Shown here: positions 15 to 4,393 of the stretch, in pieces
Layout: each line of letters opens with the position of its first letter
Numbering within the stretch: position 1 is the stretch's first letter
Assembly (NCBI RefSeq): GCF_024296685.1
Contig: NZ_CP100763.1
Span: 1-64,000 of the forward strand
Direction: 5' to 3'
Source: Natrinema marinum
Lineage (GTDB): Archaea > Halobacteriota > Halobacteria > Halobacteriales > Natrialbaceae
DNA: 64,000 bases
Translations under genes and position numbers: made by a program
The notes under the pieces: generated by a model
The model's database searches: none
What the model saw: the letters and a program-made list of their open reading frames with translations, nothing else
Told to the model about the DNA's origin: nothing

Positions 15-1049
15 GTGATCGTCGACGGCCGCGTGCTGCGCGAGGATTTCGTGCCCAGCGAGGTGGTCCACCGCCACGACGAGGTGAACCTCCTCTCGGA
101 GACCCTCGAGCCCTTGCTGTCCGACGGCCGGCCGGACCCGGCCTTCCTGTTCGGGCCGACGGGCGTCGGCAAGACCTGCCTCGCCCGGTATACCCTCGCC
201 CAGTTGCGCGATCAGGAGCCGACGGTGCGGGCCGCCTACGTCAACTGCTGGCAGGAGTACACCCGCTTTCGCGTCCTCTACGGCATCCTCGAGTCGCTCG
301 ATCGAGCGGTCGACGTTCACCGCTCGACGCCGAAAGACGAACTGTTCGACCGGCTCTCGCGAGCCGACGGGGAGCCGATCGTCGTCGTGCTGGACGAGGT
401 CGACCAGCTAGAGGAGACCGGCGCGCTGTACGATCTCCACCGCCTGCCACACGTCTCGCTGATCCTGATCGCCAACCGCGAGGAGGAGTTGTTCGCGAGC
501 TTCGACGACCGGGTGCGCTCGCGGTTCCACGCGGGGACTCGGGTTCGGTTCGACCGCTACGGCACCGACGAACTGGCGACGATCCTCGCCGAACGGGCCG
601 AACAGGGCCTCGAGCCGGGTGTGGTACGCGAGTCGCAGCTACGGACGATCGCCGATGCCGCGTCGGGTGACGCTCGCGTCGGGCTGGGAATCCTCCGCTC
701 GGCCGCCCGTCGCGCGGACCGCGAGGGACGGGCGTCGATCACCGACGACGTTCTCGAGGCGGCGATCCCGGACGCGCGGACGGCGATCCGCCGGCAGACC
801 GTCGAGGGGCTGATCGAACACCAGCGGGTGCTGTACGACGTGATCGCCGACGCCGGCGAGATCGAACCCGGCGACCTCTATGCCGAATACGAGCGGCGGG
901 TCGACGAGCCGAAGACGACCCGGACGCTGCGCAACTACCTGACGAAGATGGTCCACTACGATCTGATCGAGGCGGTCGGCAAGCGCCGCGGCCGGACCTA
1001 CCGGCTCGTCGCCGAGGACGACGCGGACGGCTCGAGCGACGATTTGTAG
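15..1049 (+). CDS. orc: Orc1/Cdc6-family AAA+ ATPase
   Basis: Initiator/regulator ATPase of the archaeal Orc1/Cdc6 family, which binds DNA through an AAA+ module and a winged helix. Seen: Walker A GPTGVGKT at residues 47-54, Walker B ending LDEVD near 126-130, a sensor-1 Asn near 154, a sensor-2 region with Arg (GDARVGLGILR, about 218-228) and a C-terminal winged-helix region from about 265. The 344 residues are somewhat short for the family. The start is GTG, chosen because MIVDxRVLxxxFVP is a usual family N-terminus; the frame stays open to the left edge of the window, so an upstream start cannot be excluded. Haloarchaea carry many Orc paralogs, most not essential origin binders. This one sits 172 bp before the PolB2 operon on the same strand, so a regulatory role there is possible (inference). 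Confidence 0.93.
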   Translation: MIVDGRVLREDFVPSEVVHRHDEVNLLSETLEPLLSDGRPDPAFLFGPTGVGKTCLARYTLAQLRDQEPTVRAAYVNCWQEYTRFRVLYGILESLDRAVDVHRSTPKDELFDRLSRADGEPIVVVLDEVDQLEETGALYDLHRLPHVSLILIANREEELFASFDDRVRSRFHAGTRVRFDRYGTDELATILAERAEQGLEPGVVRESQLRTIADAASGDARVGLGILRSAARRADREGRASITDDVLEAAIPDARTAIRRQTVEGLIEHQRVLYDVIADAGEIEPGDLYAEYERRVDEPKTTRTLRNYLTKMVHYDLIEAVGKRRGRTYRLVAEDDADGSSDDL

Positions 1050-1221
1050 CCCGTTTCTCGGTCCGCCCGCGGTGGCGCGCTCGTTTCGGAAACCGATATC
1101 GGAAATCGGAACTATCCTGCCAGCGGCTCCCTGACGGTCTATTTCGGCGCTTCCGAGGTTTTTCGGAAGTATCGGAAACCGTGCTCCGTCGCTTATGGGC
1201 CGCTCGCTCGAGTCTGCACAC
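1050..1221 (+). promoter_or_regulatory. Intergenic region with repeated CGGAA motifs and a TATA-like box
   Basis: This gap between the orc gene and the PolB2 operon holds forward CGGAA motifs at 1087, 1100, 1107, 1164 and 1173 and a reverse copy (TTCCG) at 1151. Two of them, at 1097-1105 and 1170-1178, extend to TATCGGAAA. A TATA-like CTTATG at about 1192-1197 lies about 27 nt before the ATG at 1222 and supports a leaderless transcript. The repeats could be binding sites for a regulator; which one is unknown. Confidence 0.5.
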
Positions 1222-1911
1222 ATGCACCGACTCGAACTCGAGCCCGGAGTGACGCTGTTGAACGTCCCGTCGCCGCGGTCGGGGATCGTTCACCGACTGG
1301 TCTGTGACCGACTGGCCGACGACGCTGGTGGCGGCGACGGCGGCTCGGCCTACTGGATCGACGCGCGGTCGGCGGCGTCGACCCACGCGCTGTACGACCG
1401 CGCCTCGAGCCCGCGCGTCCTCGAGCCGTTGCGGGTCGCGCGGGCGTTTACCGCCTACCAGCACCACTCGCTGGTGCGAACGGTCGCCCGGCGGGCGGGG
1501 CCGACGACGGCGCTGCTCGTCGCGCCGAACGTCGCCAGCCTCTACCGAGACGACGACCTCGCGGCGTGGGAACGCGAGGACCTGCTCGCCGCGAGCCTCG
1601 AGATCCTGTCCGAACTCGGGCGCGTGCTCGACTGCCCGGTGCTCCTGACGAGCGCCGGCGACGGGGACGAGGGCTCGGACGCGGTCGCCGACCGCGCGGA
1701 CACCGTAATCGAGTGTACCCGTACGCGTGAGGGGATTCGATTCGAGGCCGCGGGCGACGGTCCGTCCTCGACGGACGCCACGGCGGGCTACTGGCACGGG
1801 TCCGTCTGGCAGACGACGATCCCCTACTGGGTCGAGGTCTGCGGCGCCGTCGACGCGGTCGACCCCGTCGTCGCCGCTCACGACCGCGGGCTGCTCGAGG
1901 TGATCGGCTGA
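1222..1911 (+). CDS. RecA-fold protein without a Walker A motif, PolB2-associated
   Basis: Protein of 229 residues that I read as an inactivated RadA/RecA-like ATPase. Its middle follows the RadA core pattern: YWIDARS resembles the strand of RadA that reads YIDTE, then RVARAFTAYQHHSLV resembles the N-ARA-FNSNHQ region, then LLVAPNVASLYR stands where Walker B and its following VDS would be, and later CPVLLTS resembles the VTNQ strand. No GxxxxGK[ST] is present. The start at 1222 is preferred over an in-frame GTG/ATG at 1195 because the TATA-like box lies about 27 nt upstream. Its stop overlaps the next start (TGATG), so it is translationally coupled. Inactive RecA paralogs next to PolB2 are known in archaea; the assignment here rests on motif reading only. 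Confidence 0.7.
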   Translation: MHRLELEPGVTLLNVPSPRSGIVHRLVCDRLADDAGGGDGGSAYWIDARSAASTHALYDRASSPRVLEPLRVARAFTAYQHHSLVRTVARRAGPTTALLVAPNVASLYRDDDLAAWEREDLLAASLEILSELGRVLDCPVLLTSAGDGDEGSDAVADRADTVIECTRTREGIRFEAAGDGPSSTDATAGYWHGSVWQTTIPYWVEVCGAVDAVDPVVAAHDRGLLEVIG

Positions 1912-2210
1912 TGGGGCGGACGAACCCGACCTACCGCGACGCCCTTCGCAGGCTCGAGTCGGAGTGGGAGCCGATGCGGCGGGCGCTGCGCCGGGAGTAC
2001 CAGGACGACTTCGATCGGCTGTTCGATCGGGCGCGGGAGTTCGCCGACGCGGCGGGCTACGCCAACCCGCCGGACCCCGAGCGCGCGCTCGTGTTGTCGC
2101 TGTTGCTCGCCCACGAGGTCGAACTCCGGCGGCTGCGAGCCGAACGCGACGTGAACGGGGATCGAGCGGCCGGCGATCGACGAACGGACCGAGAGGGGAC
2201 CGACGGATGA
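1911..2210 (+). CDS. Small helical protein of the PolB2 operon
   Basis: Conserved-looking haloarchaeal protein of 99 residues, predicted almost wholly helical and highly charged, with no enzyme motif that I recognise. It begins MGRTNPTYRDALRRLE and ends in a low-complexity Arg/Asp/Gly tail. The gene overlaps its neighbours on both sides: TGATG with the RecA-fold gene and ATGA with the polymerase gene. That packing indicates one mRNA and probably coupled translation, so the product is likely a partner of the polymerase or the RecA-like protein. The function is not known. Confidence 0.75.
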   Translation: MGRTNPTYRDALRRLESEWEPMRRALRREYQDDFDRLFDRAREFADAAGYANPPDPERALVLSLLLAHEVELRRLRAERDVNGDRAAGDRRTDREGTDG

Positions 2211-4393
2211 GTCCCTTCACCCTCGAGTTCGAGGACGGGACCGTCAGGGAGTGGACCCTGACCGACCAGGGGGCCGAGCCGACGACCGTGGCGGACTACG
2301 CGCCGTCGCTGTTCGTCGCCGGCCCGGACGACGCGCTCGCGGCCCTCCGCGAGCGCCTCGAGTCCGATCCCAAGGTCGTCGCGACCGGCATCGAGCGGTG
2401 GGCGACGAGCCTCCACGAGGCCCACGCGGGCGATCGCAGTCCCGTCTTGCGGGTCGACCTCGAGCGCGTCGGCGAGGTTCGGACGCTGGCCCGTGAAGTC
2501 CGGGGCGTCCACGAGCGCGAGACCCACGCCCCTGGGACCTTCCGCCTGTTCGACGTGGACCTCGCGCCGGGTTTTCGCTACTGTCTCGATCGGGGGCTCG
2601 ATCCGACGCCGGCGCGCGAACTGCGGACGCTTCGGCTCGCGCTCGACGAGGCCGCGCTGGCCGACGGCGATGTCTCGGCGCTGGAACTCGAGGACGAGGC
2701 GGTCGCGGGCGACGAGACGCGCGTCCTCCGGACGCTCGGCCGTCGCCTCGAGTGCGAGGATCCGGACGTGCTCGTGGTGAGCCACGCCGATCTGGTCCCC
2801 TTGCTCGAGCGGCGGGCCGAGGCGCTGGGACTCGACGAGTTCTCGCTGGGGCGGCTGCCGGGCTGGAGGACGCTCGCGAGCGAGAACACGTACGCGAGCT
2901 ACGGCCGGGTGGGTCACTCGCCGGCGCGCTACCGCGTGCCGGGTCGAGCGATCGTCGATACGTCGAACAGCTTTCTCTGGCACCAGTCGGGACTGGCCGG
3001 GATCCGCTACATGGTCGAGCGGACGGGCCGACCGCTCCAGGAGGCTGCGTGGGGGAGCATCGGGACGCTTCTGACCGCGAGGCAGATCCGGCTCGCGCGT
3101 CGGGAGGAAGGGGTGCTCGCCCCGTGGAACAAATGGGAGCCCGAGCGGTTCACCGACGTGGCGACGCTGCACGCGGCCGACCGCGGCGGCTTCACCTTCG
3201 CCCCCGAGGTCGGCTTCCACGAGGACGTCCACGAGATCGACTTCGCGTCGCTGTACCCGCGGATCATCTGCGAGCGCAACGTCAGTCCGGAGACGGTCGG
3301 CTGCGGCTGCGAGGGCGCCGGTGGCCACCGCGTCCCCGACCTCGAGTACGAAATCTGCGACGACGGGGGCTTTCTCCCCGCCGTCCTCGAGCCGCTGATC
3401 GCCGAGCGAGCGGCCATCAAACGGCGACTCGCCGACGGCCCCGACGAGTCGGCGGCCGCCCGGCTCCGCGCCGAATCGGGCGCGATCAAGTGGATCCTCG
3501 TCTCCTGTTTCGGCTACCAGGGGTACCGAAACGCCAAGTTCGGCCGGATCGAGTGCCACGAGACGATCAACGCCTACGCCCGCGAGATCGCGCTGACGGC
3601 CAAACGACGACTCGAGGACGCCGGCTGGCGGATCGTCCACGGCATCGTCGACAGCCTCTGGGTGACCCCGCGGACCGACGAGCCGGAGCCGATCGCCGAC
3701 ATCACCGCCGCCGTCTCTGACGCGGTGGGGATCCCGCTCGAGCACGACGGCAGCTACGAGTGGGTGTGTTTCGTGCCGCGTCGGGACTCGATCTCGAGCG
3801 GTGGCTCCGGGGGCCTCGCCGACGCGACCGCGAGGGGGACCCCATCGGCGGGCGCGCTGACGAAGTACTTCGGCAAACGACGGGACGGCGAGTACACGTT
3901 CCGGGGGATCGAGTCGCGCCAGCGGAGCACGCCCGCGTTCGTCGCGGACGGTCAGCGCGCGTTCGTCGCGGCGCTCGACCGCGAGCGCGACCCCGAGGCC
4001 GTCTGCGACGTACTCGGCCGACGGCTGGCCGAACTCCGCGACGGAGCGGTCGATCCGTCTGCCCTCGAGATCACAAAGCGGGTCTCGAAACCCCTCGCCG
4101 AGTACGGCCGGCGGACGCACACCGTGGCGGCGCTTCGGCGGTACGAGCGCCGGGGAATCGACCGCCGTCCCGGACAGTCCGTCACGTACGTCGTCGTCGA
4201 CGACGATGCCCGCGGCCCCGAGCGCGTTCGCCTCGCGGTAGCGGAGCCCTGCGAGTACGACGCGGACTACTATGCGAGGCTGCTCGTGCGGGCCTGCGAA
4301 AGCGTCGTCTCGCCGCTCGGCTGGGACCGCGCCCGGATCCGGCGCTCGCTGCGCGACGGCCGGTCCGTCCGACTGTCGACGTTCACCGACTGA
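2207..4393 (+). CDS. polB2: PolB2-type family B DNA polymerase
   Basis: Family B DNA polymerase of 728 residues, shorter than replicative PolB. Motif A is DFASLYPRI with Asp at about residue 345. Motif B is reduced to KWILVSCFGYQGY (Lys about 428, without the usual Asn-Ser). Motif C reads HGIVDS at 478-483 where YGDTDS is expected, so Ile replaces the first Asp while the second Asp (482) is kept. The exonuclease region has FDVDL near 116 and looks degenerate. Archaeal PolB2 was once judged inactive, but a crenarchaeal member (Dpo2) has been linked to translesion synthesis; both candidate metal ligands survive here, so loss of activity should not be assumed. ATG at 2207 overlaps the stop of the previous gene, which fixes the start. 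Confidence 0.9.
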   Translation: MSPFTLEFEDGTVREWTLTDQGAEPTTVADYAPSLFVAGPDDALAALRERLESDPKVVATGIERWATSLHEAHAGDRSPVLRVDLERVGEVRTLAREVRGVHERETHAPGTFRLFDVDLAPGFRYCLDRGLDPTPARELRTLRLALDEAALADGDVSALELEDEAVAGDETRVLRTLGRRLECEDPDVLVVSHADLVPLLERRAEALGLDEFSLGRLPGWRTLASENTYASYGRVGHSPARYRVPGRAIVDTSNSFLWHQSGLAGIRYMVERTGRPLQEAAWGSIGTLLTARQIRLARREEGVLAPWNKWEPERFTDVATLHAADRGGFTFAPEVGFHEDVHEIDFASLYPRIICERNVSPETVGCGCEGAGGHRVPDLEYEICDDGGFLPAVLEPLIAERAAIKRRLADGPDESAAARLRAESGAIKWILVSCFGYQGYRNAKFGRIECHETINAYAREIALTAKRRLEDAGWRIVHGIVDSLWVTPRTDEPEPIADITAAVSDAVGIPLEHDGSYEWVCFVPRRDSISSGGSGGLADATARGTPSAGALTKYFGKRRDGEYTFRGIESRQRSTPAFVADGQRAFVAALDRERDPEAVCDVLGRRLAELRDGAVDPSALEITKRVSKPLAEYGRRTHTVAALRRYERRGIDRRPGQSVTYVVVDDDARGPERVRLAVAEPCEYDADYYARLLVRACESVVSPLGWDRARIRRSLRDGRSVRLSTFTD

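Follow-up and report, generated by a model that had tools for sequence, protein, structure and literature searches.

What controls the gene cluster of a PolB2-type DNA polymerase that directly follows an Orc1/Cdc6 gene at the start of the chromosome record of the haloarchaeon Natrinema marinum? The locus occupies positions 15 to 4,393 of the window, by which we mean the whole 64,000-nucleotide (nt) stretch analysed (contig NZ_CP100763.1, positions 1 to 64,000). The initial annotation had seen in it a damage-inducible translesion or mutagenesis module regulated by its own Orc paralog. We find a direct repeat, TCGGAAnnnTCGGAA, twice, each time exactly 44 nt ahead of a start codon: once for orc and once for the first cassette gene, which encodes an inactive RadA paralog (iRadA). 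An operator shared by these two promoters is new relative to the literature searched. We consider it probable that the locus represents a PolB2 translesion mutasome operon controlled by an adjacently encoded, autoregulated transcription factor of the Orc family, i.e., a known gene cluster with a new operator and a plausible and testable candidate regulator. The features concerned are the following (window coordinates, except for the first).

Chromosome 3765958-3765972, before window base 1: orc operator TCGGAAATTTCGGAA, from the operator site search
15 to 1049, plus strand: orc, GTG start, 344 amino acids; Orc1/Cdc6-family AAA+ and winged-helix protein, a proposed autoregulated transcription factor
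1086 to 1111, plus strand: distal cluster of three TCGGAA half-sites (1086, 1099, 1106), read from the sequence; similar distal half-sites occur in several relatives
1163 to 1177, plus strand: proximal iRadA operator TCGGAAGTATCGGAA, 44 nt before the iRadA start and conserved in relatives
1192 to 1197, plus strand: TATA-like box CTTATG, read from the sequence; same arrangement in relatives
1222 to 1911, plus strand: iRadA, inactive RadA/Rad51 paralog without Walker A, ATG start
1911 to 2210, plus strand: small protein of 99 amino acids in the position of PPB2 / arCOG07300
2207 to 4393, plus strand: polB2, 728 amino acids, B-family DNA polymerase of the PolB2 group

The orc promoter falls outside the window, in locus L009 at the opposite end of the record, because window base 1 is also base 1 of the complete 3.77-Mb chromosome record. 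On this chromosome the exact TCGGAAnnnTCGGAA pattern is present at three sites, upstream of orc (3765958), of iRadA (1163) and of a gene for a 182-amino-acid protein (385579). With one mismatch allowed, 25 operator sites are found in this genome versus five for the reversed pattern, and across 41 genomes the real pattern has more than 100 matches and the reversed pattern two, the reversed pattern being a rough control with a base composition unlike that of the real one. Some twenty Natrialbaceae loci have TCGGAAnnnTCGGAA ahead of orc and of iRadA. Where a site is of the promoter type, the distance from operator to start codon is mostly 44 nt, be the gene orc, an iRadA paralog or another. The same arrangement extends to the wider haloarchaea with the variants YNGGAA-n2/3-YNGGAA; scoring allowed a half-site spacing of 2 or 3. 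Of the 39 linked pairs, 30 have an operator scoring at least 11/12 in the orc promoter and 29 in the iRadA promoter, the rate in random 112-nt windows being 1.5%. It is located immediately upstream of the TATA box and B recognition element (BRE) region of leaderless promoters. The site of an archaeal activator is expected upstream of the TATA box.

Other genes likewise carry the operator. The gene at the third exact site (C1:385579-386183, product without Pfam match) was considered as a further target and is regarded as a weak regulon member, because its orthologs in four relatives keep just one half-site or a near repeat. Stand-alone paralogs of the inactive RadA (L229, L230, L243, L245), full-length in at least some cases, have the operator 43-44 nt before their start. 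In eight loci (L227, L233, L234, L236, L237, L244, L246, L250) TCGGAAnnnTCGGAA sites precede a conserved leader of about 200 nt, and three of these (L244, L246, L250) possess twin sites exactly 75 bp apart. Behind the leader most of the loci encode tyrosine recombinases, L233 and L237 other proteins; a regulated mobile element or a structured RNA may account for them.

The initial reading of four plus-strand genes, the last three overlapping, is confirmed by the open reading frames (ORFs), with stop/start overlaps at 1911 and at 2207-2210. The orc product matches TIGR02928 (190.4 bits, cut-off 181.3) and combines the AAA+ and winged-helix parts of Orc1/Cdc6 proteins with Walker A and B motifs. 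Its AlphaFold2 model has a predicted local distance difference test score (pLDDT) of 90.5, with the strands of the wing hairpin at residues 318-321 and 328-331; the nearest solved folds are 2qby_A and 2v1u_A, and the nearest solved structure is Orc1-1. We moved the iRadA start from position 1195 of the ORF table to 1222 because the TATA-like box occupies 1192-1197; box and ATG together imply an mRNA that would be leaderless. The RecA fold without Walker A that had been ascribed to iRadA is borne out by alignment, in which Walker A is gone, and by a model of RadA/Rad51/Dmc1 fold (AlphaFold2 pLDDT 84; top Foldseek E 6.8e-11), while the Pfam Rad51 match (E 6.6e-4) falls just under the cut-off. 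The small protein is kept between iRadA and polB2 in most loci having both genes; it fits PPB2 / arCOG07300, as described in the literature (PMC4104785, PMC11791011), by size and position, and no Pfam or NCBIfam model matches it. The polymerase is of the PolB2 type, as first annotated (NF004418 at 860 bits, cut-off 692). It retains motif A, DFASLYP (D345), and the second aspartate of motif C (D482). Neither D345 nor D482 varies among 11 PolB2 sequences; the other aspartate of motif C, the first, is missing.

The operon matches the PolB2-PPB2-iRadA mutasome. Makarova 2014 grouped its three genes, often together with an arORC2-family gene in euryarchaea, and reported lexA near mutasome genes in some bacteria (PMC4104785). 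Timinskas 2025 again found orc1/cdc6 enrichment near the mutasome and suggested Orc as a damage regulator (PMC11791011). Berquist 2007 described two haloarchaea in which polB2 adjoins a gene of the Orc5 clade, and showed that polB2 is dispensable (PMC1906834). In Sulfolobus islandicus, Dpo2 (PolB2) is damage-inducible and the sole source of targeted mutagenesis (PMC7390963). Neither the linkage of orc and cassette nor the general regulatory idea is new, because both have been published for archaea (PMC4104785, PMC11791011).

Is the linkage more than coincidence? Within the genus, orc at 84-89% identity adjoins an intact cassette in this genome and in G003, G007, G009, G012, G017, G018 and G023, where the polB2 match of G007 consists of two pieces within one long frame. 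Outside Natrinema, a related orc is found upstream of the cassette in many genera, often directly and on the same strand, on chromosomes as well as plasmids (80 loci in other haloarchaea). A survey of the orc neighbourhoods therefore places the linkage above chance, and we reject chance linkage, given that both the linkage and the shared operator are found again in other genera. That orc and cassette are neighbours without any shared function appears highly improbable to us: six genomes of the same genus with an orc that lacks the cassette would fit it, but not the recurrence of linkage and operator on different replicons, nor the published orc1/cdc6 enrichment (PMC11791011, PMC4104785). In a plasmid lineage (L087, L089, L161, L168, L176, L177) inserts of about 2-9 kb split the small gene from polB2. 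In strain NRC-1, orc4 is convergent to polB2 with a transposase upstream, a region that says nothing on the operator.

The next question is whether DNA damage is the signal. Boubriak 2008 found the motif TTTCACTTTCA about 50 nt upstream of the ultraviolet-B (UV-B)-induced Halobacterium genes radA1, top6B, vng17 and vng280 and named no regulator for it (PMC2556686). The UV-B motif precedes radA in N. marinum (L307, C1:2839020) and its relatives, a conserved gene for a 77-amino-acid protein in N. marinum (L292, C1:1872041), and top6B in G040, the names radA and top6B at these sites being taken from reading translated sequences. It also precedes iRadA in seven of 17 cassettes without an adjacent orc, versus none of 17 with one (p 0.007). 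The TCGGAA repeat of the window occupies the same promoter position as the UV-B motif in those other cassettes, which supports damage control of the cassette, probable for this genome too. The annotated damage-inducible module thus draws support from relatives whose cassettes lack an adjacent orc, and not from the window's own cassette promoter, from which the UV-B motif is absent.

The UV-B motif further lies before the orc genes of two loci, L128 and L129, and orc can therefore be a target of another regulator. This accords with a different explanation, in which the TCGGAA repeat is bound by a separate transcription factor encoded elsewhere, and orc, perhaps as an effector of replication restart, is just one of the genes that this factor regulates along with the polB2 cassette. 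The operators before unrelated genes are in line with it, as is an operator site in G016, a genome in which no related orc was found at the cut-off used. We nevertheless judge it unlikely, since it leaves unexplained why several divergent orc clades bear the operator before their own gene and why a single Orc residue best predicts the operator class (see below). An Orc of the L112 type was considered as regulator of the UV-B motif itself, and dropped because the motif is present only in the L129 promoter and the others checked are without it.

Operator variants and Orc sequence vary together. The variants in the orc and iRadA promoters of one locus are alike beyond shuffles (11 divergent loci, permutation p 0.001); for example, CCGGAAACCCGGAA is found in both promoters of L126 and both of L127, and the degenerate TCGGCAGTATCGGA in both promoters of L150. 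When every Orc column was ranked, in an unbiased scan, by how well it predicts the TCGGAA versus the C(C/T)GGAA class, residue 324 came out top, with K, N, R or T accompanying T, and G or S accompanying C, as first base of the half-site. The AlphaFold2 model places this residue at the tip of the wing, between the two hairpin strands. A second set, consisting of further orc promoters picked by similarity to one Orc, shows agreement between residue 324 and the first base of the second half-site in 45 of 46 sequences; the next-ranked columns, 302 at the start of the recognition helix and 319, are both in the winged helix. The Fisher values for the match between residue 324 and operator are not independent evidence, as the sequences are related.

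Several observations weigh against control by the adjacent Orc. For the second set, a tree calculated without the wing gives about five changes of operator class and four of the residue, with two independent pairs on well-supported branches, of which one agrees and the other shows no difference; an earlier, smaller tree had given three operator and three residue changes and two agreeing pairs. Owing to the relatedness of the sequences and the few independent changes, the covariation at residue 324 does not reach significance when phylogeny is taken into account. It is also broken by L398 (a TCGGAA second half-site with Ser324), L128 (Lys324 in the Orc, CCGGAA in the cassette and the UV-B motif in the promoter of orc itself) and L248 (Glu324). 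No operator is seen in several promoters of adjacent orc genes or cassettes (L129, L158, L175), and the plasmid lineage of the window's Orc has at most one clear half-site. Moreover, the orc locus is kept and the cassette lost or fragmentary in G010, G014, G015, G020, G021 and G022. The claim that Orc is the regulator is partly supported: the shared operator (with one copy inside 1050-1221, the orc-iRadA interval named in the initial annotation), the covariation within loci and residue 324 speak for it, and the small number of independent changes weakens the last of these.

Polymerase fragments lie next to the retained orc in G021 (L098, 6281-6642), and an iRadA remnant with intact operator persists in G020 (L097, 2169-2237); we interpret these as stages of cassette loss. 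Describing the module as "self-contained" was too strong, because orc and its operator outlast the cassette in relatives and because further genes have the operator.

An Orc protein may, of course, be an ordinary origin initiator, with the repeat as its origin recognition box (ORB) and polB2 left from an old replication module of a plasmid or integrated replicon. PolB2 and the window's Orc clade are common on haloarchaeal plasmids near other orc genes, the cumulative GC skew dips to a local minimum close to the start of the record, and a conserved 26-nt element is inverted at both ends of the intergenic stretch upstream of orc. Composition and ORB search do not support this role: the 1.4 kb upstream of orc, with 66.8% G+C, has no A+T-rich stretch and no haloarchaeal-type ORB among the known forms covered by the search, whereas the other orc neighbourhoods checked do have A+T-rich stretches. 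A repeat at a fixed 44 nt before the leaderless starts of non-orc genes is likewise not accounted for, and we regard the origin role as quite unlikely. The 26-nt element, ATAAAYNNNATANNNCGATAYNRAAT, is located at chromosome positions 3764784-3764809 (minus strand) and 3765903-3765928 (plus strand) in L009, the copies being 1.1 kb apart. Most orc promoters in Natrinema carry it ahead of the operator, and it occurs at other places in other genomes.

Returning to the autoregulated Orc, we infer that its C-terminal winged helix would contact the direct repeat, in which YNGGAA half-sites recur every 9 bp (TCGGAAnnnTCGGAA in this genome). The protein would do so either as a dimer or as two monomers side by side, and residue 324 of the wing would recognise the base with which the half-site begins. 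The placement of the operator upstream of the TATA/BRE region fits an activator, which would control its own gene as well as the mutasome. Judging from Sulfolobales Orc1-2 and from related cassettes that have the UV-B motif in this position, DNA damage is the probable trigger, and the output is probably error-prone lesion bypass.

The clade of the window's Orc paralog is present in 221 of 394 genomes sampled. It is conceivable, and we propose it tentatively, that the whole haloarchaeal clade comprises LexA-like autoregulated transcription factors rather than initiators, each reading a tandem operator of its own through a variable wing, and that these operators and the UV-B motif have replaced one another at mutasome promoters in evolution. 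To our knowledge, no damage regulator is known in haloarchaea. If true, an SOS-like response of archaea would gain in this clade a layer that has been missing. Control by the window's Orc would in itself extend the use of origin proteins as damage-response transcription factors from Sulfolobales to haloarchaea and tie it to a mutagenic polymerase. A defined operator, a candidate regulator and one candidate specificity residue reduce the question to binding and promoter tests.

The parallel to Sulfolobales, from which the initial annotation set out, is partial. Orc1-2 of Sulfolobus islandicus is a damage-response regulator binding ANTTTC (PMC9738581). Like the window's protein it belongs to the Orc1/Cdc6 family of AAA+ and winged-helix proteins; its operator stands in its own promoter and those of its targets, as the candidate operator does here, and PolB2/Dpo2 is damage-inducible there, as is proposed for the cassette here. 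In the orc and cassette promoters here the operator is TCGGAAnnnTCGGAA and not the ANTTTC element. The initiator-specific motif (ISM) of Orc1-2 has a TGL-type loop, whereas the conserved Gly-Leu is missing from the ISM-like region of the window's Orc, which reads HRSTP (HRSTPKDEL in its clade). A further difference from Orc1-2 is that the window's orc adjoins polB2.

With the PolB2-PPB2-iRadA mutasome (PMC11791011; PMC4104785) the locus shares gene set (its PPB2 being putative), order, overlaps, the inactive RadA and a nearby orc1/cdc6 homolog. No operator is described in the accessible parts of those papers, whereas the window's locus has a shared operator and a proposed wing determinant. The Halobacterium UV-B motif (PMC2556686) resembles the window's operator in being a short tandem repeat that lies upstream of the TATA box, some 50 nt from the start codon, but differs in sequence, and it is found here before radA and before the polB2 cassettes of other genera. 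Finally, the bacterial PolB2 operons with lexA (PMC4104785) likewise have the gene of a damage regulator close to those of the mutasome; there the regulator is LexA, and in the window the candidate is an Orc protein.

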